Source: a virus
Virus record (IMG/VR): IMGVR_UViG_3300035091_000045
Coordinates: 1-36,144 of that record
Reading direction: 5' to 3' (one strand)
Length of the DNA stretch: 36,144 bases
Position numbers and translations under genes: made by a program. Shown one piece after another: positions 3,660-26,436 of the stretch (its first letter is position 1; the number at the start of each line of letters is the position of its first letter). Under the pieces are notes generated by a model. That model worked only from the letters and a program-made list of their open reading frames with translations. It made no database searches and had not been told where the DNA came from.

Positions 3660-4124
3660 ATGATTCAGGACAAGCTGTGCGTCCTCTCGGACGAGCAGGA
3701 CCTGGCGCAGAACACCGGCAACTACCTGTCCACGTACTCGTACGACACCGGCGCGGCGGGCACGCCGGAGAACGCCAAGGTGTTCGGCGGCACCGTGGCG
3801 CTGTCGAACGACCCGGCGCAGGGCAGCCCGCTGGCGCTCGACATCCAGGTGACGGAGGACTTCGACTCGAACGGCGCCGCGACGGTGCAGTTCCAGGCCG
3901 TGGAGGCGGATAACGCCGCCCTCACTTCCAACCTCACGGTGCTCGCGGAAACCGCGGCCATCGGCTACGCGACGCTGGTCGCCGGGTACCAGCCGCGGCT
4001 CAACTTCTTCCCGCGCGGCTCCAAGCAGTACAAGGGCGTCCGCTACGTCATCGCCGCGGCTGCCACCACCGCCGGCTCCGTGTCGGCGAGCCTCGCGTCC
4101 CTCCAGCCGTCCTCGGCGCCGTAG
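3660..4124 (+). CDS. Capsid cement/decoration-like protein (Bbp16-like)
   Basis: A 154-residue beta-rich protein, likely binding the outside of the shell to stabilise it. It begins MIQDKLCVLSDEQDL, reaches a YDTGAAG turn, and alternates short hydrophobic strands with Ala/Gly/Thr-rich turns, ending RGVRY-like (YKGVRYVIAAAAT). This is the pattern and gene position of the Bbp16-type cement protein that follows the capsid gene in BPP-1-like phages. The ATG is preceded by AAGGAAGGG at 3645-3655. It could alternatively be an unrelated head fibre, but position and length favour cement. Confidence 0.72.
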   Translation: MIQDKLCVLSDEQDLAQNTGNYLSTYSYDTGAAGTPENAKVFGGTVALSNDPAQGSPLALDIQVTEDFDSNGAATVQFQAVEADNAALTSNLTVLAETAAIGYATLVAGYQPRLNFFPRGSKQYKGVRYVIAAAATTAGSVSASLASLQPSSAP

Positions 4125-4156: not shown

Positions 4157-4639
4157 ATGCAGGAGTTCATCGTCGGCAACGCCGGCGCCTTCCATAAGGG
4201 GCGCTGGTTCAATTCGGGGCAGAAGATTCGCATCCCGGACGCGGAGCTGCCGTCCATCACCTGGACGTGGCCGAACGGCGCGCCCGTGGAGATCGACGTG
4301 AAAAAGGACGCCCAGGGCAACGTCACCAAGACGCTGAAGCCCAAGGGCGAGCCGCCGGCGGCGCCCAAGCCCCGGACGGAGGACGACGAGATCGCCGAGT
4401 TGGAGGCACGCCTCCAGCAGCTCCGCGAGAGCCAGAAGGCCAAGGACAAGCCGGCGCTCAGCCAGGTGGCGACGCCTCCGAAGTCCCCTGGCACGGAGGA
4501 CGGGAACAAGAAGGGCACCGACGCCAAGGACGACAAGGGCACCAAGGGCGAGGACGCGAAGGCGGCCCAGCCGACCAAGGACACGAAGGCCACCCAGCCG
4601 GCCAAGGGCGGCCGGCCCTCCGACCAGGACCCGGCGTAG
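4157..4639 (+). CDS. Virion-region protein with a Lys/Asp-rich low-complexity tail
   Basis: A 160-residue protein of unknown function. Residues 1-60 look folded (MQEFIVGNAGAFHKGRWF..., a small beta unit with a WTWPNG motif). Residues about 75-95 form a short coiled coil (DDEIAELEARLQQLRESQ). From about 97 to the end it is a low-complexity, charged tail with partly repeated K-D-K-G-T-K and QP(T/A)K units. Such tails occur in minor head proteins and in head-tail joining proteins. The gene lies between cement and head-tail adaptor genes and has AGGAG shortly before its ATG. Role inferred from position only. Confidence 0.7.
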   Translation: MQEFIVGNAGAFHKGRWFNSGQKIRIPDAELPSITWTWPNGAPVEIDVKKDAQGNVTKTLKPKGEPPAAPKPRTEDDEIAELEARLQQLRESQKAKDKPALSQVATPPKSPGTEDGNKKGTDAKDDKGTKGEDAKAAQPTKDTKATQPAKGGRPSDQDPA

Positions 4640-4702: not shown

Positions 4703-5344
4703 ATGGCGATCACCACCGAAGTCGGCGCGGCGAACCTGGCCCTGGGGAAGATTGGCCAGACCCAGCGCCTCACCAGCCTCAGCGGCACGACGCCCGTCGT
4801 CCTGGCGGTGAACGATGCGTTCGCCCTCGCGCGGCAGGGGCTGTTGCAGGAGTTCCGCTGGCGCTTCGCCACGCGGCGGGCGGTGCTGGCGGAGAGCGAG
4901 GCCACGGCGCGCGCGGAGTGGGGCTACGTGTACGAGCTGCCGGAGGACTTCCTCGAGGCGCAGTTCATCAACGCGGGCGCGCGGGATGACCAGGTGCCGA
5001 GGGACAACCGGCTCTCCTTCACGCTCGAGTTCGAGCCGGCCGCCGGGGACCTCCCGGATCGGCAGGTATTCCTCACCGACGTGGCGCCGGCCACCGACGA
5101 GGCGCCGGAGCTCATCTACACGTGGGACCAGGACGACGTGGCGCAGTGGCCGCCGCACTTCCTGGAGGCGTTCGCCTGGCGGCTCGCCGGCGAGCTGGCC
5201 GTGCCGCTGGCGGTGAAGGTGGACCGCGCGCAGCTCGCCTTCTCCATGGCGGACCAGCGGCTGCGGGAGGCCATCGCCAAAGAGCAGCGCGGGCGACAGG
5301 CAGACCCGCCGCAGGATTCCGAATTCATCACTGGGAGGGGGTAG
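4703..5344 (+). CDS. Tail tubular protein A-like / head-tail adaptor
   Basis: A 213-residue protein expected to form the first ring below the portal (T7 gp11-type adaptor). N-terminal AANLALGKIGQT and TTPVVLAVNDAFALARQGLLQEFRWRFATRRAVL is the typical start of this family, in which the ring-forming helices follow a short loop. A PPHFLEAFAWRLAGELA.PL segment in the C-terminal half also matches it. Start ATG 4703 has no clear Shine-Dalgarno, only the hairpin described separately upstream. It is followed after 5 bases by the nozzle gene, the same A-B order as in T7-like phages. Confidence 0.8.
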   Translation: MAITTEVGAANLALGKIGQTQRLTSLSGTTPVVLAVNDAFALARQGLLQEFRWRFATRRAVLAESEATARAEWGYVYELPEDFLEAQFINAGARDDQVPRDNRLSFTLEFEPAAGDLPDRQVFLTDVAPATDEAPELIYTWDQDDVAQWPPHFLEAFAWRLAGELAVPLAVKVDRAQLAFSMADQRLREAIAKEQRGRQADPPQDSEFITGRG

Positions 5345-8221: not shown

Positions 8222-8726
8222 CCCCATCTCCCTCGGCGTCGGCTCGCTGGTGCTCCAGGCCATCGGCACCGGCGCGAAGGCCTTCGGCGAGTACTCCGCG
8301 GGCCAGGACGCCGCCCGGGTGGCCGAGCAGAACGCCCAGCTGGCGGAGCGCGCCGCCGGCGACGCCCTCTCTCGCGGGGAGGAGCAGGCGGCGCGGATCC
8401 GCGGGGAGACGGACCGGCTGATCGGGTCCCAGCGCGCGGCCTACGGCGCCGCCGGCGTGGAACTGGGGTACGGCAGCCCGCTGGACGTCATGGTGGGGAG
8501 CCGCCGGGTGTCCGAGCAGGACATCGCCACCACCCGGCTGAACGCCGCGCGCGAGTCCTGGGGCTACCGGGCGCAGGCCCAGCAGTTCCGCCAGGGCGGC
8601 CAGGCGGCGGCGCAGGCCGGCGCCCTCAGCGCGCTGGGCACCGGCATCGCCGGCGGGACGCAGACGCTCCTCGGGACGAACGACCTCCTGCAGCGGCTGG
8701 GGGTCAACAAGAAGAAGGACGGCTGA
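8211..8726 (+). CDS. Internal virion protein, T7 gp14-like
   Basis: A 171-residue Ala/Gln-rich protein. The N-terminal hydrophobic patch (SLGVGSLVLQAIGTGAKAFGEY) is followed by a long helix with many Ala/Glu/Arg residues, then GSQRAAYGAAGVELGYGSPLDVM, a motif common to gp14-like core proteins that insert into the host envelope during DNA ejection. The C-terminus has a second hydrophobic Gly/Ala stretch (AGALSALGTGIAGGTQTLLG). It is flanked by gp13-like and gp15-like genes with overlapping start/stop codons. Function inferred from family pattern and synteny. Confidence 0.78.
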   Translation: MGADPISLGVGSLVLQAIGTGAKAFGEYSAGQDAARVAEQNAQLAERAAGDALSRGEEQAARIRGETDRLIGSQRAAYGAAGVELGYGSPLDVMVGSRRVSEQDIATTRLNAARESWGYRAQAQQFRQGGQAAAQAGALSALGTGIAGGTQTLLGTNDLLQRLGVNKKKDG

Positions 8727-10525
8727 TGCCCACCGTCCCGGTATACGACCAGCCAAGGGTAGCGACGGAGCGCCTGCCCACCCCCTACGCCCAGCCCCAG
8801 GGCGCGCCGGGCGTCGAAGCGCTGGGCGCCGGCCTCCAGTCCGCTGGCGCGCAGCTCGAGCAGGTGGCGCGCCAGGAACAGCAGAAGCAGGACCTCGCCC
8901 GGGTGCAGGAGGCGCGGCAGGCGCTTTCGGACTGGAAGCAGGCCAACCTGTACGACGCGCAGAAGGGTTACCTGGCGAAGCGCGGCCAGGACGCCCTGGG
9001 CCAGCAGGACAAGTACCTCGCGGACCTGGACTCCACCACAGAGGCGATCTCCGGCTCCCTCGCCAACGACGAGCAGCGCCGGGCCTTCGCGGCCATGGCC
9101 CAGGAACAGCGCCAGGGCGTCGCCGAGCAGATGTCCGCCCACGAGCTGCGCGAGTCCGACCGGGCCGCGGCCGGCGCGTACGAGGGCGCCCTGTCCGCGG
9201 CCGCCAGCGACGCGGCGAACGCCTTCACCGACCCGGTGGCGGTGGCGCGGGCCCGCCACGACGGGATGCTGGCCGTCCTCGCCCGCGGAAAGGCCCAGGG
9301 CTGGAGCCCCGAGGAAACGGACGCCCAGCTCCGGGGCTTCACCACCACCATGCACCTCGGAGTGGTGGACCGAATGCTGGCCGCCGGCGACGGCCTGGGC
9401 GCCCAGGCGTACCTCCATCTGCACGGCGGGGAGATTGACGGCCGCGCCCGCGCCGGCGCGGACCGCCAGGCCGCGGCTGCGGGGTTGGACCAGCGCGCCC
9501 TGGGCGAGTCCCGGCGCATTCAGAGCGAGGCGGGGGACATCGGCAAGCAGCTCCAGCTCGCCCAGGCCATCCCGGACGCCAAGCTGCAGGACGAGGTGAC
9601 GCAGCGGCTGCAGCACGACTTCGCCGCGGCGAAGGCCGCCAAGCAGGCCCAGCAGAATGACGTCTTCGACTCAGCCTTCACCGCCTACCTAAAGGGCGGC
9701 TCCCTCAGCGCCATCCCGTCGACCACCAAGTCGTGGCTGATCGCCAACGCGCCAGAGGACTGGGACAGGCTCCGGATGAAGGCCCGCCAGGATGCGGAGT
9801 ACTGGCGCCGCCTCCAGGCCGAGGGGAAGGGCGAGACGCCCCAGCAGCGCGCGGCCATGGTGAATTTCGCCTTCGACTTCGGGAACAACCCGGAGAAGTA
9901 CCTCGGGATGCGCCCGCAGGACTTCATCTCGGAGTGGGGCGTCCAGCTGAGCCCGCGCGACCTGGAGACGGCCGGCAACCGGGTGGCCGGGCTGAAGGCG
10001 GAGACCAACAAGCCCGACAAGAATCCGGCGCTGGCCCCGCTCGTCGAGCGGATGCTGAACGTCCGCGGCTCGGAGGCCAAGCTTTGGCCGGCCGGGAAGC
10101 CGGAGACGTGGAGCGCCGCCGAGTACGACGCCTACCGCCTGGCGCACGAGGACCTGGTGAGCCGCGAGGCGGATTGGCGCCGCCAGCACAACGGCCAGAC
10201 GCCGCCGGCCGAGCAGTACGACAAGTGGATGACGGAGGACTTCCTGCGGGTGCGGGTGAAGGACTCCGGCCGCTTCTTCCCGGACCGGCCCACCCTCCTC
10301 CAGTTCCAGAAGGGCGACGCCTACAAGGGGAAGGAGTTGGAGGATCGCGACGCGGCCGCGGCCGCGCTGGTCCGCCAGGGCATCCAGCCCACGGACGAAC
10401 TGGTCGACGACCTGCTCCGGCGCATGGCGACCCGGCCGGTTTCCGGGCCCACGGCCACGGGCGAACAGGGCGGCCCCCAATCTCCTCCGTCCGGGGCGTA
10501 CCCCACGCGCTCGCAGGCGCGCTGA
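8726..10525 (+). CDS. Internal virion (ejection) protein, T7 gp15-like
   Basis: A 599-residue, strongly helical protein, second of the internal core proteins. Residues 1-45 are Pro/Gln-rich with an N-terminal peptide (PVYDQPRVATERLPTP) like other gp15-like starts. About 45-330 is long coiled coil (EQVARQEQQKQDLARVQEARQAL and similar). The region with LANDEQRRAFAAMAQEQRQG matches the family. No signal peptide or membrane segment. ATG 8726 overlaps the previous TGA. The gene is followed by the giant protein, which takes the place of T7 gp16, so these form the ejection apparatus. Confidence 0.78.
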   Translation: MPTVPVYDQPRVATERLPTPYAQPQGAPGVEALGAGLQSAGAQLEQVARQEQQKQDLARVQEARQALSDWKQANLYDAQKGYLAKRGQDALGQQDKYLADLDSTTEAISGSLANDEQRRAFAAMAQEQRQGVAEQMSAHELRESDRAAAGAYEGALSAAASDAANAFTDPVAVARARHDGMLAVLARGKAQGWSPEETDAQLRGFTTTMHLGVVDRMLAAGDGLGAQAYLHLHGGEIDGRARAGADRQAAAAGLDQRALGESRRIQSEAGDIGKQLQLAQAIPDAKLQDEVTQRLQHDFAAAKAAKQAQQNDVFDSAFTAYLKGGSLSAIPSTTKSWLIANAPEDWDRLRMKARQDAEYWRRLQAEGKGETPQQRAAMVNFAFDFGNNPEKYLGMRPQDFISEWGVQLSPRDLETAGNRVAGLKAETNKPDKNPALAPLVERMLNVRGSEAKLWPAGKPETWSAAEYDAYRLAHEDLVSREADWRRQHNGQTPPAEQYDKWMTEDFLRVRVKDSGRFFPDRPTLLQFQKGDAYKGKELEDRDAAAAALVRQGIQPTDELVDDLLRRMATRPVSGPTATGEQGGPQSPPSGAYPTRSQAR

Positions 10526-10543: not shown

Positions 10544-13500
10544 ATGCCCAGCTTCGACGAGATCGCCGCGCAGATGGCCGCGGAGCAGCAGCGCCCGGCC
10601 GCGCCAGCGCCGGAGGTGCCGGAGGCCATCGCCGCGCCCTCGCCGCCGCCGCCGCCCACCATGGACGAGCTGGCCGGCCAGATGAAGGCCGAGCACGACG
10701 AGACGGAGCGCCGGGCTGCACAGCTCATGCGGTACCGGTCGGCGAACGACGCCACGCCACCGGAGCAGCGGGCCCAGGTGCTGAAGTACTCCGCCGCCAC
10801 CGGGCTGCCGCCCGACCTGGTGGCGGCGAACTTCGACAGGGTGAAGCGCGAGGTGGACGCCAAGGGCGTGGACTGGGCCCAACTGCGGCGCGAAATGCCG
10901 GGCCTGCGCCAGTACCTGGACGACCGGCCGGAGGGCCACCCCCTCGCCCAGGACGATTTGGAGCAGCTCCACGGCGTGGAGTGGGCGCTGCAGGCGCTGC
11001 CCAGCAAGCTCGGGCGCGGCGTGCTGAGCGTCGACCAGCAGCTCCACCGCTGGTACCTCGATGCGGCCGAGAGCGTTCTCCCCTCGCCCGACCAGGCGTC
11101 CGACTGGCAGAACTGGGTGCGGGACCAGGTCCATCACCTCCAGTTTCAGGTGGCCGGGGCCGAGACGCAGACCCAGCTGCAGGAGCAGGATGCGGGCACC
11201 TACGGCGCCACCAGCCGCGCCGGGAAGATGCTGGTGGGGACCGCCGGCGCGCTGCCCGTGGTGGCCGAGTACGGCCTCGTCGGGCTGGCCACGGGCGGCG
11301 CGGGCACCTTCGCGCTGGGTACGGCTCAGGGGTTGGACACCCTGCAGGAGCGCCTGAAGGGCCTGCGAGACCAGAACGGAGATCCGCTCGACCCGGAGGC
11401 CGTCGACACCGCGGCCCACGTCGGCGCCGTCCTCCAGGGCGCGCTCAACATCATCCCGGTGGGGAAGGTGCTCGGCCTCACCGGCAAGGGCGTGGCGGTG
11501 CTGCCTGGCAGCAAGGCGCTCCTCGAAAAGCTCGCCGGCGACGCCATGGAGCAGGTACTCCAGAAGCAGGGCGCGCCCGCCCTCCTGAAGCGCGCCGTCG
11601 CGGAGTGGGGCGTCCACACCCTCAACGCCGGATTCCTGATGGGCCTCCAGGGCGCCGTCAACCAGGCGGCCGAGGAGGGAGTGAAGGGTCAGTCCGGGCT
11701 CGGCGCCGACCCGAAGAAGGTGGCCAGCGCCTTCGCGGACAGCTTCGTCCAGGGACTCAACGATATGGCGCTCATCGGCGCCATGGGCCAGGGTCGGGAG
11801 CTGCTGGCCCAAAGCCGCCAGCTCGAGCAGTCGCGCCTGGAAGCCGCTCGGTACGAGCAGGCGATCCGCGCCGCCGGCGACTCCAAGATGCTGGAGCGCT
11901 CCCCCGTGGAGTTCGAGGCCGCGGCCGGGAAGATGGCGGAGCAGCCCGACGCCGCGCGCGAGGTGTCCGTCCCGGTGGAGGCCTGGAACACCTACTGGCA
12001 GGCGCAGAAGGTGGACCCGGCCCAGGTGGCCGAGGCGCTCCTCGGCGACCAGCGGCTGTACCAGGAGGCCGTGGCCACCCGCGGGGACCTGTCCATCCCG
12101 GCCGAGCGCTTCATCGCGCGCCTGGGGAAGACGGAGCACCTGCTCGGCCTGCGCGAGGACGTGCGGCTCAGTCCCGAGAGCCTCACCCCGCGGGAGATGA
12201 AGGTGGAGGCGAAGGCGCGCGAAGCCCGGCTGAAGGAGGAGGCGGCCGCCCGCGGCTCCGAGCTGGAGCGTGGGAAGGCGGAGGTGGAGGCCTTCATCAA
12301 CGACCAGGCGCGGGCCGCCGGCATCCCGAAGGAGGACGCCGCCGCCAACGCCAAGCTGGTGGCGGAGTACGCCGGCACCATGGCCCTGCGCCTGGGCGTG
12401 TCCGTCCAGGAGGCGGCCAACGTGGGCGCCCTGAACCGGCTCTCCATCCTCGGGCCGAAGGGCGAGGCGGTGGCGGCCGCGGCCCGGGAGAGGTTCGCCC
12501 AGTTCCTCGCGCCCAGCGCCTCGCGCGTCCTGGGAGAGCGCCTCGCGACGATGTCCCCGGAGGCGCGGGCCCGCGAGTACTACGTCGACCCGGTGTCCGG
12601 CCTGCTCAACCGTCGGGCCTTCGACGCTCTCCCTGCCCCCGAGGGCAAGCAGGTGGCGGTGGTGACGCTGCCGGACGTCAAGGCCATCAACGACTCGCCG
12701 GAGGGCGGCCACGACAGGACGAACGAGCTGCTGCGCGTCGCCGGCGCCGCGGTGGGCGAGGCCGATCCCCAAGCCGCCCGGAGCGGCACCAACTTCATCT
12801 TGCGGGTGAAGGACCAGGCCGAGCTGGACCAGGTGCTGGCGCGCGTCCGGGCCGCGCTGCCGGACCAGCGCCTCGCCGTGGAGGGCGCCCTCGGCGCCAC
12901 CCCCCAGGAGGCCGGGAAGGCGCTGGACGCGCACGTGGACGCCCGCCGCGCCGCCGGCGAGCTGCCCGCGCGCGGGACGGCGCCGGCCGGCCTGGAGGTC
13001 GGCAAGCTGACCTTCCCGGAGGGCCGGGCGCGCGGGGTGGTGCCGCTGGACCTGGTGTCCGAGCTCGGCGCCCTTTCGCCGGAGGAGTACTTCCGGCGCG
13101 CTTACCAGGACGAGAAGTCCCCCGGCATCCTCTCCCGGGAGGGCTGGGACGCCATCCCCCGGAAGGCCTACGTGGCGTCCATCGACCTGCGCGGGTTGAA
13201 GGACCTGAACGCCAAGCTGGGCAAGGCCGCCGGCGACGAGGTGCTGCGGCAGTTCGGCGACATCGCCGAGCACTTCGGCGGGTCGTCGTTCGATTTCTCC
13301 CACCTCTCCGGCGACGAGTACGCCGCCCAGGCCGATGATCCCGCCCATCTTGAGGGCTGGCTTGAAAAGCTGAGGAGTAAGGCGCAGACTTACATTGAAT
13401 TCCAGGTCACGCTCGCGGACGGGTCGAAGGCGAAGATCCGCGGCGCCGACTTCCGGTCCGGGATCGCGCGAGGTTCCTATGGCGCAGCCGACAGAGCCCT

Positions 13501-16500
13501 CAACGAAGCCAAGCTCCGAGAACGAGCCGGAACGAGTGCTGAAGCTGCACGAGATTCCGGAGGGATCAACACTGGAGTCGATCAGTATCGGGGGAACGGT
13601 GACCTGGCGGAAGGGCGAGGAGCTCTCGGACGAGGAGCGCCGGCGCCGAGTGAGGGCGGCGCTGACCAAGGCGGGACTGTAGCTGGTGAGGCGAGTCCTC
13701 CTCTGGATACTCTTCGGGCTTCTGGCCTCGGCGATTCGGGGCTCGGTGCCGGAGGTACTGATCGCCTTGGTACAGGCGGGAGGGATAGCCCGGCCGAGGA
13801 CGTCGGACGACGTGAACACGTTGGCGACGGTGGGCGCGCTGGTTCAGGCCGTGCTGATCGGAGTGGCGTTCTACTTGGTGATCTGGCGGACCAAGCGCCC
13901 AGCCTCGGACGCGGCGCTACTCCTCAAGGATTCCCCGGAGTCGAGCTCCGACAAGCCGCTCTAGGCGCAGACACCTCCTTCGACTTCGGGGCCAACGTCG
14001 CGCACATCGAGGGCGCGCCCGTCGAGTACGGTCCCTCCGGCCTGCGCGAGGCGCGCGCTGCCATCGGCCGGATGCGCCCGGACAACCGGGAGGCGGCGCA
14101 GGCCTTCCTCGAGTACTCCATCGGGCAGCGGGACACGCGGCCGGAGATCAGCCCGGAGCTGGAGCGGCGCCTGGCGGAGTACGGCGTGGTGGACCCGGCC
14201 GGGTACAGCTTCGACGAGGCAGGCCGGGAGATGGCCCGGCCCATCGGCGGGCCCAAGAAGCTGAACCAGGAGCCGGCGTCCCTGCGCGAGTACCGGATGC
14301 GGCGCCAGGGGACGTGGCGGGCCTACGAGCAGGCGGCGCCCACGGGCGGGGGCGAGGGCGGCGGCCGCGGCTCCATCAGCTTCCGGGTGACCCCCGAAGG
14401 TCGCCCGGTGGAGTTCCGCATCGAGGCCTTCCGGGGTGACCGCTCCACCCTCGCCCACGAGACGGCGCACTTCCTCTCGTGGAGCCTCCACGAGATCGCC
14501 ACCAGCGACCTGGCCAGCCCCGACGTCCGGGCCGACTACGACGCGCTGCTGAAGTGGGCCGGCTACGACTCACCGGAGCAGCGCCTGCGCGAGCAGGACG
14601 CGGCGAAGGAGGAGAAGTTCAGCCACGCCTGGGAGCAGTACCTCGCCGAGGGGAAGGCGCCGAGCAGCGCCCTGGCGCGCGTCTTCAGCCGCTTCAAGGA
14701 CTGGATGCTCCGAATCTACCGGGGCCTGGGCGGCATTGGGGCGCAGTACCGCGCCCAGCACGGAGAGGACCTCCAGCTCTCCGACGAGGTGCGGGGCATC
14801 TTCGGCCGGCTGCTGGCCGCGGACGAGTCCCTCACCCGGGCCCGGGCGGACGCCGGCGTGACGGGCCGGCCGGACCCGAACGTCGAGAAGGCCATGACGC
14901 CAGCGGAGCGCGAGCAGTACCGGAAGGCGCTGGTGGATGCGCGCACCGGCGAGGAGGCGGAGGTGGCGAAGCGCGCCGCCGAGCTGGACGCGCCGGAGCT
15001 GCGGCAGGCCAGGGCGCGCATCGCCGGCGAGGTGGCGGCCGAGCTCGACCAGCGCCCTGAGTACCGGGTGCAGCGCTTTCTCCAGCGCGGCGAGCTGGCG
15101 GACGGCAAGGGCGGCGCCCTCATCGAGGCGGCCATCCCGGACGTCTTCCTGGGGGAGGACGGCCAGCCGCTCCGGCTCAACCGGGAGAAGTTCGCCGAGC
15201 AGTACGGCGAGGACGCGGCGCGAGCCATGCCCCCCGGCACACTCGCGCGCGGGAAGGCCGGCGTCTCCGCGGACGAGCTGGCGCCCCTGTTCGGCTACGA
15301 GACGGGCGCCGAGATGGCCTCGAAGCTGATCACCACCGAGCCGCGGGACAAGGCGGTGGAGCGCCTCACTCAGGAGCGGATGGACGCGACGTACGGCCCC
15401 GCGCTGCAGCGGCTGCAGGCGGCCGCGCTGGCCGCCATCCACAGCGACGCCCAGGCGCGCGTGACGCTGATGGAGCTGCGGCAGCTGGCGAAGGAAGTGG
15501 ACCCGGCCACTGCGCGCCGGGTGCGCAGCATCAACCTGGAGACGCTGAAGGACACCGCCGAGCGGATGGTGGGGGAGACGCCCCTCGGCGCCCTCAACCC
15601 CGAGCGGTACCTCCGCGCCGAGCGGGCCACCGCCCTGCGGGCCGAGCGGCTCTGGGGCCAGGGCAAGAAGGCGGAGGCGCTGGACGAGAAGGAGGCCCGG
15701 CTGCTCAACCAGGTCCTCTACAGGGCCGCGCGGGACACCCAGGAGCGGCTGGAGAAGGCGCGCACGGCCCTGGAAGCCACCAGCGACGCGCAGCGGGCGG
15801 CGCTGGGGAAGGCGGATCCGTCCTACCGCGACGTCCACGACGCGCTGCTCAAGGCGGTGGACCTGGGCCCTGGCCCGGCGGACCCGGCGACGGCGCTGGG
15901 CTTGGACGCCATGCTGCAGCGGGCGCAGCAGGACGCCCAGGAGATGGACTTCGACGTGGCGGCCATCCGGGCGCTGCTCGCAGAGCCGGCTCCCTGGGAG
16001 CGCCTCACCGCGGACGAGGCTCAAAACGTGGTGGACGCGGTCGCCAACATCCGCACGGCCGCGCGCCGGCGGAACGAGGTGACGCTGGCCGGCAAGACGC
16101 AGACGAAGGACGCCTTCTTCGCGCGGATGAAGGACCACCTCGCCGGGCGCCAGCCCCTTCCGCCGGGGCCGTACACCCAGAGGGAGCGCACTCTCGGGGA
16201 GAAAGCCTCCAGCCTGAAGCGCAGCGTGGAGTCCGACTTGATGGACGTCGGCGAGACGCTGGCCCACATGCTCGACGCCGGCGAGCGGAACGGCCCCGCG
16301 CACGAGCTGCTCGTCGACGGACGGCTGGCCGCGCGTGACGCCGAGGCGGAGCTAACGAAGTCCGTCCTGGAGAAGGTGGCGGCCGCGTACGAGGGAATGC
16401 CCGAGGAGATGAAGAAGCTGGCGGGCACGAAGGTGCCGGGCCTCGAGCAGCTCCTCCCGATGCCAGAGGGCAGCCGGGTGCGGCCGCCGGCGACGCGGGA

Positions 16501-18286
16501 CGCGCTCTATGCCCTCTTTTTGAACTCGGGGAATGAGGGGAACCGCCAGCGACTCCGGGACGGCAACGGCTGGAGCGACGAGCAGGTACAGCGCGCTCTG
16601 AATCTCCTGAAGCCCGAGGAGGCCAAATTCCTTCAGGGCGTGCTCGACGTCGTGGACAAAGGGCTCTGGGAGCAGCTCGCCAAGGTGTACGAAGCGCGGA
16701 CGGGGCTCCCGCTCGAGAAGGTGCGGGCGACGGCCATCACCGTCAACGGAGAGAGCTACGGCGGCGGGTACTTCCCCATCCGGTACGACGAACGGAGCAG
16801 CCGCCCCGGCGAGTTGCAGGCGGACGCGGAGACGGTGGCCGGCCTGTTTCAGGGCAACTATCAGAAGGCGGCCGTCTCCTCGGGCCACACGAAGGCGCGC
16901 GTCGAGAAGGTGGACGCTGCGGTGCTGCTCGACTGGAACGTCCTCCCCGCGCACCTCGCGCAGGTCATCCACGACATCAGCTACGGGGACTGGGTGCGGC
17001 AGGCCGGGAGTCTCGTCCTGGACCAGCGCTTCAAGGACCTGGCCGCGGAGTACCTCGGCACCGAGCGGCGGGCGCAGTTGGTGCCCTGGCTCCAGGACGT
17101 GGCCAACGCGCGAGCGGACAGCGCCGCCGGCGTGCTCAGCCAGGCGGCGCGCACCATCGGGCAGGTGGCGCGCGGACGGCTGGCGGTGGCCGCGCTCGGC
17201 TTCAACGTGAAGGCCTTCGCGCTCCACACGTTCGACCCCTGGAAGGCCACGTGGGAGGGCGTCGGGATGGGGCGCATCGCCGCCGCTTACCTCAAGGTGA
17301 TGGCGCCCTGGAGATGGGGCGAGCACCGGGAACTCGCGCTGTCCAAGGAGATCGCCGCCCGAGAGACCAATTTCCGCGAGGACCTCCGCAGGACTCTGGC
17401 CGCCGCGGGCCTGGGCGAGCCGGGGCTGTGGCGCAAGCTGGGGGAGACGCAGTTCCGGCTCTACGAGTGGATTGACCGCTTCACCTCGCGGGTGACGTTC
17501 AAAGCGGCGTTCGACGGCGCCCGGGCGGAGGGGCTGTCGGAGGCGGACGCGGCTCGGCGGGCGGACGATGCTGTGCGCCGGACGCTGGCCAGCCACGACG
17601 TGGCGGAGAAGCCGCGCCTGATGCGCTCCAAGAGCGGGCTGGGCGCCATCGTCATGTTCTACGGGTACGCGAACCGGGGTTGGAACCAGCGGTTCCGCGC
17701 GCGGGACGACATCGCGCGGACCTGGGGCCGCGAGGACGCCACTGCGACGGACAAGGCCAGTGCGGTGGCGGGCTACGCGGCCAAGATGATGGCGCTCTCC
17801 GTCATCGGCGCCGGCGCCGCGTACCTCGCCGGACGCGGGCCGAAGAAGAAGGACGACCCGGAGGCCTGGGCCGTCTCGCACGTCCTGATGGAGCCGCTCC
17901 ACGAATGGCCGTTCGTCGGCGGCCTGGCGGAGAAGGCGGTCCGGTTCAAAGAGGACGGCTCCTTCTTCGTGGGTCAGGTGGACGCGCGCACGGAGCCCGG
18001 CCTGGCGTACCTGGTGGACACCATCAACCGCCTGGGAGAGATCACCAACAAGGCGCGGAGCAACAGCCTCACCAGCGAGGACAAGCTCTGGTTCGCGGTC
18101 GACAGCGTGCTCGGGCTGGCGCTGGGCGGCCAGGTGGCGGAGACCGCGGACTATGCCCACAAGCTCGGCACTGGTCAGGCGCGGCCGCGGGGCCCGCTCG
18201 ACGTGGCGTCGGGGCTGGTCTACGGCGAGAAGAAGGAGCCGGTGGCGACGCCGCTCACCGGGGCCCAGGACCTGATCAGCCAGTAG
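10544..18286 (+). CDS. Giant polyvalent ejection protein with tandem GGDEF-like and zincin-like domains
   Basis: A 2580-residue protein in the position of T7 gp16, probably carried in the capsid and injected with DNA. Visible blocks: about 1-300 helical with a hydrophobic stretch near 227-262; a degenerate GGDEF-like unit near 680-770 (DPVSGLLNRRAF, then SGTNF at 747-751 where GGDEF is expected); a better GGDEF unit near 875-985 with DLRGLKDLN (Asp 881), SGDEY at 922-926 and GIARG at 973-977 followed by ADRALNEAKLR; a Gly/Arg/Asp/Ser-rich linker about 980-1140; a zincin-like unit with HETAH at 1305-1309 and acidic residues at 1356-1357; long helices; a C-terminal region resembling the large polyvalent-protein domains, with a hydrophobic segment near 2410. 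AGGGAG precedes ATG 10544. Domain calls are by motif reading. GC3 drops to about half across the linker. Confidence 0.8.
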   Translation: MPSFDEIAAQMAAEQQRPAAPAPEVPEAIAAPSPPPPPTMDELAGQMKAEHDETERRAAQLMRYRSANDATPPEQRAQVLKYSAATGLPPDLVAANFDRVKREVDAKGVDWAQLRREMPGLRQYLDDRPEGHPLAQDDLEQLHGVEWALQALPSKLGRGVLSVDQQLHRWYLDAAESVLPSPDQASDWQNWVRDQVHHLQFQVAGAETQTQLQEQDAGTYGATSRAGKMLVGTAGALPVVAEYGLVGLATGGAGTFALGTAQGLDTLQERLKGLRDQNGDPLDPEAVDTAAHVGAVLQGALNIIPVGKVLGLTGKGVAVLPGSKALLEKLAGDAMEQVLQKQGAPALLKRAVAEWGVHTLNAGFLMGLQGAVNQAAEEGVKGQSGLGADPKKVASAFADSFVQGLNDMALIGAMGQGRELLAQSRQLEQSRLEAARYEQAIRAAGDSKMLERSPVEFEAAAGKMAEQPDAAREVSVPVEAWNTYWQAQKVDPAQVAEALLGDQRLYQEAVATRGDLSIPAERFIARLGKTEHLLGLREDVRLSPESLTPREMKVEAKAREARLKEEAAARGSELERGKAEVEAFINDQARAAGIPKEDAAANAKLVAEYAGTMALRLGVSVQEAANVGALNRLSILGPKGEAVAAAARERFAQFLAPSASRVLGERLATMSPEARAREYYVDPVSGLLNRRAFDALPAPEGKQVAVVTLPDVKAINDSPEGGHDRTNELLRVAGAAVGEADPQAARSGTNFILRVKDQAELDQVLARVRAALPDQRLAVEGALGATPQEAGKALDAHVDARRAAGELPARGTAPAGLEVGKLTFPEGRARGVVPLDLVSELGALSPEEYFRRAYQDEKSPGILSREGWDAIPRKAYVASIDLRGLKDLNAKLGKAAGDEVLRQFGDIAEHFGGSSFDFSHLSGDEYAAQADDPAHLEGWLEKLRSKAQTYIEFQVTLADGSKAKIRGADFRSGIARGSYGAADRALNEAKLRERAGTSAEAARDSGGINTGVDQYRGNGDLAEGRGALGRGAPAPSEGGADQGGTVAGEASPPLDTLRASGLGDSGLGAGGTDRLGTGGRDSPAEDVGRREHVGDGGRAGSGRADRSGVLLGDLADQAPSLGRGATPQGFPGVELRQAALGADTSFDFGANVAHIEGAPVEYGPSGLREARAAIGRMRPDNREAAQAFLEYSIGQRDTRPEISPELERRLAEYGVVDPAGYSFDEAGREMARPIGGPKKLNQEPASLREYRMRRQGTWRAYEQAAPTGGGEGGGRGSISFRVTPEGRPVEFRIEAFRGDRSTLAHETAHFLSWSLHEIATSDLASPDVRADYDALLKWAGYDSPEQRLREQDAAKEEKFSHAWEQYLAEGKAPSSALARVFSRFKDWMLRIYRGLGGIGAQYRAQHGEDLQLSDEVRGIFGRLLAADESLTRARADAGVTGRPDPNVEKAMTPAEREQYRKALVDARTGEEAEVAKRAAELDAPELRQARARIAGEVAAELDQRPEYRVQRFLQRGELADGKGGALIEAAIPDVFLGEDGQPLRLNREKFAEQYGEDAARAMPPGTLARGKAGVSADELAPLFGYETGAEMASKLITTEPRDKAVERLTQERMDATYGPALQRLQAAALAAIHSDAQARVTLMELRQLAKEVDPATARRVRSINLETLKDTAERMVGETPLGALNPERYLRAERATALRAERLWGQGKKAEALDEKEARLLNQVLYRAARDTQERLEKARTALEATSDAQRAALGKADPSYRDVHDALLKAVDLGPGPADPATALGLDAMLQRAQQDAQEMDFDVAAIRALLAEPAPWERLTADEAQNVVDAVANIRTAARRRNEVTLAGKTQTKDAFFARMKDHLAGRQPLPPGPYTQRERTLGEKASSLKRSVESDLMDVGETLAHMLDAGERNGPAHELLVDGRLAARDAEAELTKSVLEKVAAAYEGMPEEMKKLAGTKVPGLEQLLPMPEGSRVRPPATRDALYALFLNSGNEGNRQRLRDGNGWSDEQVQRALNLLKPEEAKFLQGVLDVVDKGLWEQLAKVYEARTGLPLEKVRATAITVNGESYGGGYFPIRYDERSSRPGELQADAETVAGLFQGNYQKAAVSSGHTKARVEKVDAAVLLDWNVLPAHLAQVIHDISYGDWVRQAGSLVLDQRFKDLAAEYLGTERRAQLVPWLQDVANARADSAAGVLSQAARTIGQVARGRLAVAALGFNVKAFALHTFDPWKATWEGVGMGRIAAAYLKVMAPWRWGEHRELALSKEIAARETNFREDLRRTLAAAGLGEPGLWRKLGETQFRLYEWIDRFTSRVTFKAAFDGARAEGLSEADAARRADDAVRRTLASHDVAEKPRLMRSKSGLGAIVMFYGYANRGWNQRFRARDDIARTWGREDATATDKASAVAGYAAKMMALSVIGAGAAYLAGRGPKKKDDPEAWAVSHVLMEPLHEWPFVGGLAEKAVRFKEDGSFFVGQVDARTEPGLAYLVDTINRLGEITNKARSNSLTSEDKLWFAVDSVLGLALGGQVAETADYAHKLGTGQARPRGPLDVASGLVYGEKKEPVATPLTGAQDLISQ
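13479..13682 (+). CDS. Nested small gene A inside the giant gene (+1 frame)
   Basis: A 67-residue ORF fully inside the giant gene, in the +1 frame. Its ATG has GAGG five bases upstream. My hand count gives 54 of 67 codons ending in G or C (81%), while the giant frame over 13481-13963 has only about 49%. Third-position bias therefore moves into this frame, the usual sign that it is translated. The product begins with a Pro/Ser/Glu-rich segment, then LKLHEIPEGSTLESISIGGTVTWRKG, and ends in a charged helix (SDEERRRRVRAALTKAGL). No recognised family and no membrane segment. It stops 3 bases before gene B, so the two look like a coupled pair. Confidence 0.68.
   Translation: MAQPTEPSTKPSSENEPERVLKLHEIPEGSTLESISIGGTVTWRKGEELSDEERRRRVRAALTKAGL
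13686..13964 (+). CDS. Nested small gene B, two-membrane-segment protein (holin candidate)
   Basis: A 92-residue ORF in the same +1 frame as gene A. GTG start is 3 bases after gene A's stop, with only a weak distant ribosome site (GGCGGGA), suggesting re-initiation. 79 of 92 codons end in G or C (86%), against about half in the overlapping giant frame. One hydrophobic segment begins VLLWILFGLLASAI (about 4-17) and may extend through VPEVLIALVQ; a second spans about 46-67 (LATVGALVQAVLIGVAFYLVIW), followed by a charged Ser/Asp/Lys tail. Small size, two membrane segments and a charged tail fit a class II-like holin or another small membrane protein. Function is inference; no endolysin gene is adjacent. 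Confidence 0.7.
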   Translation: MRRVLLWILFGLLASAIRGSVPEVLIALVQAGGIARPRTSDDVNTLATVGALVQAVLIGVAFYLVIWRTKRPASDAALLLKDSPESSSDKPL

Positions 18287-21955: not shown

Positions 21956-22230
21956 GGCTGTATTCCCTGCTGTTCGCCGGCCTGGCCCTGGTGGGCGTCG
22001 GCGCCCTGGCCGGACGGGTGTCCGCCGGCGACGCGGCTCCGCCCGGCCAGCCGCCTGGGCTGTCCCTGTGCACCAGCCTCTGCCGGAGGGACTCCGCGTA
22101 CGCGGGCCCTTTCGTCGAGCACGGCGTGTGCTACCGGGACGGGAAGGCCCAGCGGACGGTGGACTCGTCCGAGGTGTCCTCGCCGAACGAGTCCCACGAG
22201 CAGCTGCTCCGAGCGTGCCCGAAGCTGTGA
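21952..22230 (+). CDS. Small exported Cys-rich protein
   Basis: A 92-residue protein with ATG overlapping the previous stop (GATGAG). Signal peptide about 1-25 (MRLYSLLFAGLALVGVGALAG, possible cleavage after VSA). The mature part has two pairs of cysteines (LCTSLCRRD and GVCYRDG ... RACPKL) and ends polar. It lacks a lipobox Cys, so it does not look like an o-spanin lipoprotein. Position before a coiled-coil membrane protein suggests a lysis or envelope module. Function unknown. Confidence 0.63.
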   Translation: MRLYSLLFAGLALVGVGALAGRVSAGDAAPPGQPPGLSLCTSLCRRDSAYAGPFVEHGVCYRDGKAQRTVDSSEVSSPNESHEQLLRACPKL

Positions 22231-22616
22231 GCGCCCAGGAGCAGAAGGAGGGCGACGAGGCGGACAGCAAGGTGGTGATCAGCCTGCGCTCGTCCCTCCT
22301 TCGCCGCCTCTTCGCTGGTGCTGTGGCCGCCGTCTTGGGCGCCGGCGGCGGGGCGGCAGAGCGCCGGCTGACGCCCGCTCCGGATACCTCAGTGGAGCAC
22401 GCGAACGAGGTGCTGGAGCTGCGCCTGCGCGTGGGCCAACTGGAGTCCCTCCGCGCCGAGGTGACCGCCCTCAAGGCGGAGCAGGCGGCGCTGACGCTGC
22501 ACGTCCAGCGCCTGGACGACGCCCAGAAGGTGGCGCTCGAGCGACGCGCGGAGGACCTGGCGCGGATCCGCGAGCTGGAGGGCCAGGCCCGCCCCGCTGG
22601 CTACCGGCCGCACTGA
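22227..22616 (+). CDS. i-spanin-like (Rz-like) membrane-anchored coiled-coil protein
   Basis: A 129-residue protein, GTG start at 22227 overlapping the preceding stop (GTGA). Topology: about 27 charged residues, one membrane segment at about 28-44 ([21 protein letters not shown]), then a long coiled coil at about 58-120 ([28 protein letters not shown]...). This matches an inner-membrane spanin, which joins inner and outer membranes at the last step of lysis. No lipoprotein (Rz1-like) partner is clear. It could also be a general coiled-coil membrane protein. It is the last + gene before the convergent early operon, with three bases between stops. Confidence 0.6.
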
Positions 22617-22635
22617 CTCCTACAGCAGCGCGGCC
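22606..22635. terminator. Weak hairpin at the convergence of late and early operons
   Basis: The late + operon and the early minus operon meet tail to tail with three bases between their stop codons. Across the junction GGCCGC (22606-22611) pairs with GCGGCC (22630-22635) around an 18-base loop. No T-run on either strand. At most a weak bidirectional terminator; it may be chance in GC-rich DNA. Confidence 0.25.
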
Positions 22636-23036
22636 TTGCCGCCCGCCCGCGCCAGGGCCTGCTCCTCCATCTGGCGGATCCGCTCGCGGGTGACGTTCAG
22701 CGCGTCGCCCACCTCCTCCAGCGTCAGGCCGCCCTCCCCTGCGCCGTCGTCGGCCCGGTCCAGCGCGCAGGTGTGCTGGAGCTCCCACGGCTCCAGGTCG
22801 GGGAAGTTCAGCTTGATGGAGCCGGTCCCTGGATTCACGTCCAGGTAGAGGTGGTGCTTGCAGGACACCCAGGGGCAGGGCCTGGGGCCGTTCTCGCAGT
22901 CCGCCCGGGTGCGGGGGCGGAGCTGGTCCAGCTCGGCGCGCAGCTGCTCCTCGTCCGCCTCGAGGCGCTCGCCTGCCACGGCGCGCCGGAGTTGCTTCGG
23001 GGAGAGGGAGCGGTTGCGCCAGAAGTCCTGGGGCAT
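22620..23036 (-). CDS. Sigma-70 region 4-like regulator with Cys cluster
   Basis: A 138-residue protein. The C-terminal half contains a helix-turn-helix typical of sigma-70 region 4 ([25 protein letters not shown] at about 104-128), preceded by [18 protein letters not shown]. Four cysteines (about 47, 54, 59 and 90, with CPWVSCKHH) could bind zinc. There is no region 2, so it is not a complete sigma factor; it might be a partner or anti-sigma-like regulator, or a region-4 transcription factor. ATG at 23036 chosen; the longer frame upstream lies in the methyltransferase gene. It is the last gene of the early operon, a sensible place for an early-to-late switch (inference). Confidence 0.75.
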
Positions 23037-23041
23037 GACGG

Positions 23042-23215
23042 CTACCGCTGCCCCTCGGCGCGCTCGAGCAGCTCCCGGATGGCCCGCTCGGCGACCGCCG
23101 TGGCGGTGACGTCGTAGCCCGTCCGCCTTCTCTCCGCGTCCAGGAAGGCTGCGAAGCGGAGGCGCAGCTTGAAGTTGCGGATGCGGAACACCAGGGGCAC
23201 CCCGCGTGCGCTCAC
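23042..23215 (-). CDS. Small ribbon-helix-helix-like protein
   Basis: A 57-residue protein with GTG start overlapping the methyltransferase stop (GTGA). It is basic and helical. The pattern [42 protein letters not shown] gives a strand followed by two helices and would suit a ribbon-helix-helix DNA-binding protein. Stop is 5 bases before the sigma-like gene start. No family hit can be shown by eye. Regulation of the downstream genes is a possibility only. Confidence 0.55.
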
Positions 23216-25302
23216 TGGCGGCCCCCACGGGTCGAAGTCTTGGCGCGCCGCCCTCGTCCGGCGCCGGCGCCACGCTTGGGCGTCTTGTCCTTCCAGGTCC
23301 TCTTTCCGCTGGAGTGGCGGGGATCGCCCTGGTCGACGTGGCCCGGCTGCTTGATGCAGGGCTGGTGACGGAAGCGGCCGTCCACCGCGCCGCAGGTGGG
23401 GCCGGTGTCGGGCGGCGGTGACGTGCGGCGGACGCGCGGTTCGGCTGCAGCGGCGGCGGCCGCCTTGGCGTTCTTCCTCCTCGTCCGCTCTGGTTCGTTT
23501 TTGAGGAGGACAGCCCTCCACGCGTCGTGGTGCTTCTTGGCGACGTAGATCTGCGAGTGGCCGCTCCGGGAGCAGCTGGTACAGAGAGGGAGGCCATAGC
23601 GGCCGCCCTTCATTCCGCTGACGACGCCGCCGCCGCGTTCGCTCAGTTCCTTGCCGCACCACGGGCACATATCCAGCCCGTGCCGGTAGAAGTTGAGGGC
23701 GGCGGCGTAGTGCGGCGCGTCCTTCGCCTTCATGCCGCGGGCGATCGCCTTGTCGATCTCGTCGGGCGCCCTCTTCTTCTTCCGCACATCCGAGCGCTGT
23801 CGGAGGCCTTGGGCGTTCCGATGCTCGAGAAGCAGCGCCGCGTCCAGCAGGAGCACGCCCCCGTCCTCCTTCCTCACCCGAAAGAGCGTGGCGCCGTGGC
23901 ACCCGCAGCCGACCGCGCTGCAGCGGGCGGTGAAGTACTCCTCGCCCTTGCCCCAGGAGAGCTTCACCTTGAAGCCGGCCTCCCGTGCTCGTTCCCGGAA
24001 GTCCTCGAAGGTGATGATCCCCGGCGGTGATGCGTCGGCGGATGAGCGGTGTCGGTCCGACTCAGAGGACGAGGAGCGGGCCGGCTGCTCGTGACCGGCC
24101 CGCTTCTCCTGCCGTGGCCCGGCCCCCCTGGCCGAGCGCTCCCCCCCGGAGGTCGCCTCGTACTCGTACAGCTCGCAGGTGCACTTCGAGCAGCCGTCCG
24201 GCCCGTGGGCCGTGAGCTCGTGGCCACAGAGGCACGGCGGCGCGGGCAGCTCAGCGCCGCTGGTCACCCATCCCGCCCGCGGCTTTCGGGAGTCCAGTTC
24301 CAGCAGCGGCCGCGCCGGACAGAGCTCCTCCACCATCCGGTAGAACTCGTCCGGCTTCGCGCTGTGCGCGCCCCGCGGCGCCTGGAGGTCGGTGGTCTGG
24401 TTGGTGAGGTTGAGCTTGGGGCTCCCGCGGGTAGCCAGGATGCACTGCTCCGTCTTGTTGCGGACGTAGCTCCCCAGCCCCATCCGGTCCTTCGTCCAGG
24501 TGATCAGCGCCCGCGGCGTCACGCCCCAGGCCCGCATCACCTGGTGGACGGGCGCCTCCAGGCCGATCAGGTGCTGGTTGGTGCACCAGATGAAGATCAC
24601 GCAGTCTTTAGCCATCGGCGGGACCTGCGCCTTGATCTCCTCCAGCGTCGCCTGCGGGTACGGCGTGCCGCCCCGCGCGCCGTCGGCCTCCAGCTGGTTG
24701 TCGTAGGGCCAGGCTTTGTCCGTGACGATGACCGGGAACTCGCCCGCCGGCGGGACGTACGCCTTGATCTGCTCGAGCTGCTCGGCCTTCTTCTTTTCCT
24801 TCCTGGTGCGCTTCGCCTCCTTCAGCAGCCCGGCGGTGGTGACCTCGCCGCTGGGAGCTGCGCGCTGCTGGCGGATGTGCTCCTCGAAGTGCTCTTCGGG
24901 GACCTCGGCGACCTGGGTCCACCGGGAGGCAGAGTCCCGCGTGATCCCCATCTCCTCGAGGGTCGGAGGAGGTAGCGCGGGGGCGGACGCGCTGGCCTCA
25001 AATGTCGCAGCCTGCGACGTTTTCCGCGCGCGCCCGCGGTCTCGCCGTTCCCCGCGGTCCTTCTGTTCCTTCAAGAGCTGACCCAGGCGCCGCTCCGCGC
25101 GGAGTTTGATCTCGCCCGCATCGTTCTGGGCCTCCCGCGATGCGTCGCGCTGGCGTGTGTAAATGCGGACGGCCTCGGCGGTGTCGCGGATCGCCTTCGC
25201 CTCGTCGATGTCCCTGCACTCGGCGAGGATCCGGCGCGCCTCCTCCACGCGGAGAAGTGGCGCTGCCGGTTCGGCCCTTGCCAGGGCGACAGCCTCATCC
25301 AT
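23212..25302 (-). CDS. MT-A70-like adenine methyltransferase with Cys/His-rich C-terminal half
   Basis: A 696-residue protein. Residues 1-180 are helical ([32 protein letters not shown]), the usual N-terminus of phage MT-A70 fusions. Residues about 185-351 form the methyltransferase core ([62 protein letters not shown]). The catalytic DPPW-type motif reads DKAW at 195-198, followed by PYDNQ, so activity is uncertain. The C-terminal half has Cys groups near 357-376 ([11 protein letters not shown]...), 461-468, 546/549 with 574/577, and 637-655, likely zinc-binding. Likely role: N6-adenine DNA modification that protects the phage genome, or a DNA-binding relic. It overlaps the upstream gene by 8 bases and the downstream gene by 4. 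Confidence 0.78.
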
Positions 25303-25840
25303 CCTGGATCTCCCTGATCAACTCAATGAGTTCGTCGCTCTCGGCGAACCACTCGCCGTGCAGTCGGCTGTGAGAGAACCGCCGGTGCAGCTCGGCCTCT
25401 TTGTCGATGCTCCCGGGTATCAGCGCGAGCTGGCGCAGGCGGAAGGGCGACATGAGCTGGAGATCGCGCAACCGCACGTCCGGGTCGAACGAGCGACCGA
25501 TCTTGATCGGTCCGCCGATCTCCGCCTGGAAGAAGTACACGTAGCCGCGCAGCTCCATGCTCGGCTGCGAGCACTCGGCCGGGAGGTCGTCGCACTCATC
25601 ATGCGGGATCCACGGGCTATGGCAGGCGGGCCTGCGGTGGTCGATTCGGCGCGCCTCTGTCGCTCCTTGCAGGTACTGAGCGATCCGTGCGTCCACCAGG
25701 TCCTTCCGGACGGGGCCAGCGCTCGCGGTCAGCAGGAGTTGATGCTCCGTGCGGCGATACACGGCGATCCAGAAGCAGTCGTCCTCGAGCGACGGGTGGA
25801 CCTCGACATAGGGGAACAGTGCATCCTGGTTTTTGGGCAT
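25295..25840 (-). CDS. GIY-YIG-like (T5orf172/Mug113-type) protein
   Basis: A 181-residue protein. ATG at 25840 chosen because AAGGAG lies 7 bases upstream; an ATG at 25909 overlapping the RusA-like stop (ATGA) would add 23 residues and is also possible. N-terminal part (ALFPYVEVHPSLEDDCFWIAVYRRTEHQLLL) is unassigned. The C-terminal 75 residues match the T5orf172/Mug113 branch of the GIY-YIG fold: GYVYFFQAE, GGPIKIGRS, R..DLQ, EAELHRRFSHSRLHGEWF. Such proteins are probable nucleases or DNA-processing proteins of phages. Located between resolvase and methyltransferase genes. Confidence 0.7.
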   Translation of the reverse strand: MPKNQDALFPYVEVHPSLEDDCFWIAVYRRTEHQLLLTASAGPVRKDLVDARIAQYLQGATEARRIDHRRPACHSPWIPHDECDDLPAECSQPSMELRGYVYFFQAEIGGPIKIGRSFDPDVRLRDLQLMSPFRLRQLALIPGSIDKEAELHRRFSHSRLHGEWFAESDELIELIREIQDG

Positions 25841-25905: not shown

Positions 25906-26436
25906 TCATGGCTTCCTCGCTGGGATGAAGTTGGGAACCACTTTGAGACCACCTCGCGCCTGCGCCCGGGCCGGCACCTTCGGTGCCGACGTCCCGCGCT
26001 TCTTGGGCCGCGGCCGCTGGCGCTCGGGCAGCACCGCCCCGCCGAGCTGGTAGCTGATCTCCACCCGCACGCCCCAGGGGCCCACCTCCTGGGCCACGGT
26101 GAACTTCACCCGGGCGTCCCCGTCGTCGACACCGATCAGCCGGGCCACCTCGTCCCGGATGCTCTTCACGGCGGCGACTGCTCCGTCGTCGTCGAGCCGG
26201 TGCCGCGCCGGCGCCACGCGCACCAGGTGCACCGCGCAGGGCACCTGCACCGGAATGCGCGGCCAGAGGAGCGCCACCGCGTTGCGCTCCCGGAGGACGC
26301 GCTTGTGCCGCACCATGGGGTGCTCGGAGACGTTGGTCCGGTTGATGGTCCGGATGGGGACGGTGAAGGCGAAGGCGGTGCGCCCGGCCGCGCGCCGGCC
26401 GTCGAACAGCACCTCCTCGAGGCGGTACCGGAGCAT
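25906..26436 (-). CDS. RusA-like Holliday junction resolvase
   Basis: A 176-residue protein resembling RusA, which cuts Holliday junctions during phage recombination. The key acidic residues are visible: LDDDGAVAAVKSIRDEVARL (Asp 82-84) and GVDDGD (Asp 104, 105, 107), the usual arrangement for metal binding. The N-terminal strand FAFTVPIRTINRT and RHKRVLRERN fit the family start. Longer than E. coli RusA by a basic C-terminal tail (RPRPKKRGTSAPKVPARAQARG). ATG overlaps the nuclease stop (ATGA). Matches its neighbours RecT and the Cas4-like nuclease in a recombination module. Confidence 0.75.
   Translation of the reverse strand: MLRYRLEEVLFDGRRAAGRTAFAFTVPIRTINRTNVSEHPMVRHKRVLRERNAVALLWPRIPVQVPCAVHLVRVAPARHRLDDDGAVAAVKSIRDEVARLIGVDDGDARVKFTVAQEVGPWGVRVEISYQLGGAVLPERQRPRPKKRGTSAPKVPARAQARGGLKVVPNFIPARKP

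Follow-up and report, generated by a model that had tools for sequence, protein, structure and literature searches.

Polyvalent proteins, described for phages and conjugative elements, are giant proteins with multiple domains, GGDEF, zincin-like protease and LPD domains among them, that presumably reach the host together with the DNA (Iyer et al. 2017, PMC5512222). Overlapping genes inside them are, according to a term search, not mentioned in the text of PMC5512222. The window analyzed in this work, a whole stretch of 36,144 nucleotides corresponding to the IMG/VR virus record IMGVR_UViG_3300035091_000045, hosts a giant ejection-protein gene of comparable make-up, in which unrelated LPD22, GGDEF-like and HExxH parts reside in one phage protein. 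Two small open reading frames (ORFs), hereafter genes A and B, are nested in its +1 frame, where a linker joins the second GGDEF-like domain to the HExxH domain. The sequence data argue, with a probability of about 0.88, that A, and probably B too, is a small gene with a start of its own, entirely contained in the giant gene.

Phage genes that accommodate a complete small gene in a different frame are known, as Rz with Rz1, and gene D of phiX174 with gene E. Gene A would similarly be a complete small gene in a shifted frame. However, the outer gene of the window encodes a giant ejection protein, the site is a linker following a GGDEF domain, the nested proteins have no relationship to those families, and a lysis role for A or B is unsupported. 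Nested phage genes are known in kind; what appears to be new is a family that keeps its position within a giant ejection protein. Literature searches retrieved no account of genes nested in ejection or polyvalent proteins, but their coverage was incomplete, so that novelty is not proven.

Among isolated phages, BPP-1 Bbp10, Pseudomonas phage AF gp16 and Cobetia phage Carin1 gp32 are homologous to the window giant in their C-terminal two-thirds, and are found in the same gene order, but lack both the GGDEF domain, as judged by profile search, and an A-type nested gene. In turn, the YuA-like phages (YuA gp44, Churro, Bordetella phage FP1) carry a stand-alone GGDEF-like domain homologous to that of the window, with a similar C-terminal tail, but encoded by separate 157-aa genes having no nested ORF at the corresponding place. 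Domain and tail being shared without the nested ORF would fit the overprinting of a new gene on an older GGDEF tail.

Layout and coding signal of the nested ORFs

The elements under discussion are the following.

10544..18286, + strand: giant ejection (internal virion) protein gene, 2580 amino acids (aa), host of the nested ORFs (open frame, phrog_9880, LPD22, GGDEF, synteny)
13470..13473, + strand: GAGG, probable Shine-Dalgarno sequence of gene A, separated by 5 nt from the ATG (sequence; similarly spaced sites in most relatives)
13479..13682, + strand: gene A, 67 aa, ATG start, +1 frame of the giant (codon composition, conserved position, homology to the nested proteins of loci L223, L199 and L196, model)
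13686..13964, + strand: gene B (probable), 92 aa, GTG start, +1 frame of the giant (codon composition, hydropathy, helix model)
13523..13963, + strand: giant-frame linker over A and B, rich in Gly/Arg/Asp/Ser and poorly conserved (GC3 0.49, conservation below that of the nested frame)

Gene B starts 3 nt past the stop of gene A, in a stop-start arrangement, and the giant frame (10544-18286) is open across both. A preliminary description of this DNA had noticed the two +1-frame ORFs of 67 and 92 residues, 3 bases apart and the first with a ribosome site, the uninterrupted giant frame, and two hydrophobic segments in B; all these features are borne out by the sequence, the segments corresponding to two predicted transmembrane-type helices with hydropathy peaks of 1.76 and 2.28. 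Its hand counts of GC at the third codon position (GC3), 81% and 86% in the nested ORFs against about 49% in the giant frame, agree with our recount. The GC content at codon positions 1/2/3 is 0.63/0.51/0.81 in gene A and 0.65/0.47/0.86 in gene B, vs 0.83/0.64/0.49 in the giant frame over 13479-13964; outside this stretch, the giant exhibits values of 0.73-0.77/0.47-0.49/0.95. The coding signature over 13479-13964 is hence moved exactly one base, into the +1 frame. Such a rotation implies that the stretch is not simply AT-rich, and would not be produced by an insertion of AT-rich DNA. Over gene B alone, GC3 is 0.86 vs 0.47 in the giant frame, and the coding log-ratio of B over the giant frame amounts to 60 bits. 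When giant amino acids and regional codon set were kept fixed in a permutation test, the +1-frame codon-model score gave P 0.012 for A, and 0.0018 for A and B together. The decisive evidence for the predicted nested coding is the comparison with relatives.

Conservation behind the last GGDEF domain

Direct searches of viral contigs and phage records with A and B retrieved no relatives, nor did single-protein searches with the linker region and with the giant C-terminus. An alignment of the HExxH region (ten homologues plus the window) led to 80 viral and 80 bacterial loci; the N-terminal half of the window giant to giants with the same GGDEF-like region, L131 (from an Archangium metagenome-assembled genome), L039 and L033; an alignment of this shared region to further giants. 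A GGDEF-domain profile, run over 182 giant ORFs, identified the domain in 19. Early matches near the N-termini of giants were dropped, as they correspond to tails of the upstream gene. In addition, 195 genomes of the phylum of L131 were searched with the GGDEF alignment alone. Three new giants were found (L222, L223 and L224), all of which (3/3) have a nested ORF. In two of them the giant ORF is intact (3364 and 2735 aa) and resides on a long contig (631 kb and 121 kb), and the nested arrangement is therefore not an assembly artefact.

The window giant carries two copies of the domain.

12485..12955, + strand: first GGDEF-like domain, without nested ORF behind it, serving as internal control (profile of GGDEF alignment A3, E 2e-38)
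13040..13519, + strand: second GGDEF-like domain, signature SGDEY, its last helix overlapping the start of gene A (profile E 1e-51, alignment)

As regards a possible diguanylate cyclase activity, alignment A3 was inspected for the residues by which GGDEF domains bind metal and substrate: D69, N77 and G111-D112-E113, as well as G81, are invariant, and the signature reads S/H-GDE-Y/F. All of the GGDEF-bearing giants (19/19) have a small +1-frame ORF at the last GGDEF domain or shortly behind it. The nested ATG falls within the last helix of that domain in 15/19, and in L033, L062, L079 and L112 the ORF lies a few dozen codons or less past it. Most GGDEF-bearing giants have two tandem GGDEF-like domains, and no coding-like nested ORF follows the first copy (0/13); ATG ORFs found there in 3/13 all have negative coding scores. 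The nested ORF also occurs in giants of 54-63% GC, whose other frames are rich in stops. Per codon, coding-like nested ORFs are about 11-fold more frequent in GGDEF giants than in homology-verified structural genes. In the same control the other giants are only about 2-fold enriched, and claims on them consequently rest only on homologous pairs.

Start signals are similarly maintained. The giant codon making the nested ATG is TAT, GAT or CAT in 16/16 lineages, though such T-ending codons represent just 2-21% of their synonyms in most members, and GGAG/GGGAG-like sites are common upstream of the nested ATGs, at a similar distance in most relatives. The giant frame, too, is kept open. For the nested stretches of the 16 lineages, 1171 codons in all, the stop density of the equivalent frame in the remainder of these giants predicts 16.8 giant-frame stops, and 0 are seen (P about 5e-8, with lineages treated as independent).

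In comparisons of window A, its first 16 residues, encoded over the conserved giant helix, were set aside. Window A and the nested protein of L223, from a myxobacterial genome, are identical at 15/31 positions, the giant frames at 6/31 (BLOSUM sum 0); the aligned nested segments include SISIGGTVTW in the window and SISIGGTQVW in L223. Identities are 11/27 nested vs 6/27 giant with L199, and 8/27 vs 4/27 with L196. Pairwise similarity to the nested proteins of L039 and L033 is only suggestive. In a profile search with five other nested proteins, window A was the top non-member among 57,776 six-frame ORFs of all loci (E 0.31). Independent nested pairs of other giants show the same trend: nested-frame identity vs giant-frame identity is 56% vs 33% in the pair L180/L172, 57% vs 35% in L112/L079, and 68% vs 38% in L035/L091, and differences in these pairs are mostly at nested position 3.

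Conserved position and start, nested-frame homology above that of the giant frame, and a giant frame kept open indicate that gene A is almost certainly a true, conserved overlapping gene, apparently unannotated. The earlier proposal of an overprinted pair is hence strongly supported for A by position, start and nested-frame homologues, and only moderately for B, for which composition, coupling and hydrophobicity speak, but no homologue was found. The suggestion that the giant linker is the tolerated frame fits the data, as it is indeed the linker that is poorly conserved, with the nested frame better conserved. Instances of a conserved linker with a broken +1 frame were looked for among GGDEF-bearing giants, and none was found. 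That a conserved family of small phage proteins is apparently absent from annotation is attributable to the habit of gene callers, which usually suppress wholly nested genes.

Proposed scheme of translation and alternative explanations

According to the scheme we favor, the late virion transcript would be translated twice over the A/B stretch. Ribosomes engaged on the giant would stay in frame 0, and produce the linker; others would initiate at the Shine-Dalgarno sequence and ATG of A, on the last GGDEF helix, and produce A; B would be translated after A by stop-start coupling, so that both products would be made in the cell. Several observations weigh against independent nested genes, and are shared in part by the view that A and B are chance ORFs, in which high GC removes stops and linker codons are merely odd. 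Openness of A and B is by itself within chance (permutation on stops, P 0.70 for A and 0.27 for B), and is uninformative at 72% GC; the codon-model permutation gave only P 0.073 for gene B, and searches of viral contigs, phages, related records and the 195 genomes of the phylum of L131 detected no B homologue. The broad codon-score scan is unspecific alone: it yields many false nested ORFs in these genomes, and long spurious ORFs yield more matches. In L199 and L202, the nested ORF has a codon score below zero relative to the giant that contains it. An ATG in the +1 frame comes about readily over Tyr-Gly/Ala, the N-terminal likeness of A proteins is partly imposed by the giant frame, and the lineages treated as independent in stop and codon statistics are only partly so. 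Finally, the giant frame is the more similar one in the pairs L030/L032 and L084/L137, whose nested ORFs overlap a conserved giant domain. Yet, chance would leave a degraded composition rather than a rotated one, and hardly accounts for a position conserved in all GGDEF giants and missing in the tandem control, for homology higher in the nested than in the giant frame, and for ORFs kept in members of lower GC despite stop-filled other frames. We regard it as scarcely credible.

The +1 frame might otherwise be entered by programmed frameshifting from the giant, giving rise to a truncated GGDEF-A fusion with no separate start. In its favor, both the window and several relatives have an open stretch of +1 frame preceding the ATG. 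In L202, L203 and L205, however, a +1 stop is found 2-8 codons before the nested ATG, which leaves almost no room for a frameshift; moreover, nested ATG and purine-rich sites are conserved, and B would need its own start anyway. Frameshifting is thus very unlikely. Equally hard to sustain as the chance origin is the notion that the giant is not one protein, the linker being never made, and that GGDEF part, A, B and HExxH part are separate genes sharing an open frame. The giant frame over A and B does resemble the shadow of a coded +1 frame, but frame-0 coding resumes right after B with no nearby start codon, stops are missing from the giant frame throughout the 16 lineages, and the giant homologues are single genes.

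Products of genes A and B

Gene A encodes a disordered, Ser/Thr/Pro-rich start, followed by a beta-hairpin and a helix. Its relatives, which are soluble and fall into several sequence groups, share the Ser/Thr/Pro-rich start; in the group of the window the hairpin precedes a helix with an LSxEE-like start. The model of A has the same hairpin-helix fold, with a predicted local distance difference test score (pLDDT) of about 80-90 in the C-terminal half, the only part confidently modelled. The A proteins tested have no family match in Pfam and PHROGs, and the PHROG search with nested proteins gave one weak match only, L030 4331-4546 to phrog_11719 (E 0.029). A structural search with the A model detected no similar fold (best E 3.1), the confident model being limited to the C-terminal half. 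Separate A homologues behind the stand-alone GGDEF genes of YuA-like phages were also checked for, and none was seen.

The fixed link of A to the GGDEF domain suggests that A works on, or with, that domain. Most likely, A would act as a small partner (regulator, antidote or chaperone), keeping the domain inactive or soluble in the producing cell, or helping folding or packaging; what speaks against such a role is that it is deduced from position only. A more specific view, which we put forward as tentative and rather doubtful, is that the nested gene provides a dedicated antidote to, or regulator of, a nucleotide-cyclase domain in an injected multi-domain phage effector, and that further partner genes reside in other linkers of such giants. 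An antidote encoded inside the effector gene would ensure that module and partner are inherited together. As a small protein matching no known family and tied to a probably injected GGDEF domain, A may open the cyclic-nucleotide domains of phage ejection proteins to genetic probing. Nested genes also offer a testable reason for the long, poorly conserved linkers of giant ejection proteins.

Gene B is probable, not proven, on the grounds of codon composition, position and two-helix membrane pattern, and its product would be a small membrane protein. Modelled from the single sequence, B folds as two long helices (pLDDT 68). The search of the 195 genomes gave chance-level matches alone (E 0.004-0.007 per genome), and no B-like membrane ORF is found among A relatives. 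A two-gene layout like that of A and B is found in L131, where a second nested +1 ORF (3741-3986, 81 aa, soluble, with a purine-rich ribosome site) lies behind the first; it is unrelated in sequence to B. The preliminary description had suggested that a lysis (holin) or membrane function is possibly hidden in the virion gene. The size of B (92 aa), its two hydrophobic helices and charged tail are in line with a holin or other lysis protein, no recognized holin or lysis cassette is found elsewhere in the fragment, and annotated holins lie directly behind the giant in Pseudomonas phage AF. A lysis role is nonetheless improbable and not supported, as B matches no holin family in Pfam and PHROGs, no A relative carries a B-like ORF, and the conserved association is with the GGDEF domain, to which the soluble A relatives are tied; the second nested ORF of L131 is soluble too, and, the window being a fragment, lysis genes may lie outside. 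A coiled-coil protein with a weak hydrophobic segment is encoded at 22227-22616 (+); it has no family match, and could be of the spanin type.

The host gene, other nested families and neighboring genes

The left 21 kb of the window comprise BPP-1/epsilon15-like podovirus virion genes in the usual order: head-tail adaptor, protease, major head protein, tail proteins, internal virion proteins, lysozyme-like gene, giant. The giant, an ejection protein of the BPP-1 type, combines an LPD22 domain, two GGDEF-like domains, and a C-terminal half matching phrog_9880 (residues 1271-2565, E 9e-209), and its locus is syntenic with BPP-1-like podoviruses. Isolated phages encode their homologues as single giant genes, with products of about 2040-3125 aa. 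The protein probably enters the host by injection. Two further features complete the picture.

8726-10525: structural-lysozyme-like gene, directly before the giant in order
14456..14473, + strand: HETAHF metalloprotease-like motif, at the start of the conserved C-terminal portion of the giant (motif scan, alignment)

Nested +1 ORFs were noticed elsewhere. One family (LKPGKDF...AGYRPP) resides just past the GGDEF domain in L062 (9081-9293), L079 (594-779) and L112 (6774-6992), with 48-57% identity in the nested frame vs 32-35% in the giant frame. Another lies behind the HExxH motif in giants from other bacteria, in L180 (10506-10880), L172 (10563-10781) and L178 (10485-10730). Protein-like, unannotated +1 ORFs also occur in giants without a GGDEF domain, at 4331-4546 and 5180-5368 in L030 (Limnohabitans phage DC33, PQ492659.1), and at 5072-5260 and 5846-5983 in L029. 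PQ492659.1 is filed under Inoviridae, yet its genome measures 39 kb and carries virion genes of the BPP-1-like podovirus type, and its taxonomy therefore looks wrong. Two different giant matches, L054 and L057, reside on one 50-kb contig (IMGVR_UViG_3300045977_000222), and may denote adjacent prophages or a duplicated giant.

A leftward block of the window encodes a sigma-70 region 4-like protein (22620-23036, -), a DNA methyltransferase (23212-25302, -), a small endonuclease-like protein (25295-25558, -) and a PD-(D/E)XK nuclease (26436-27767, -).

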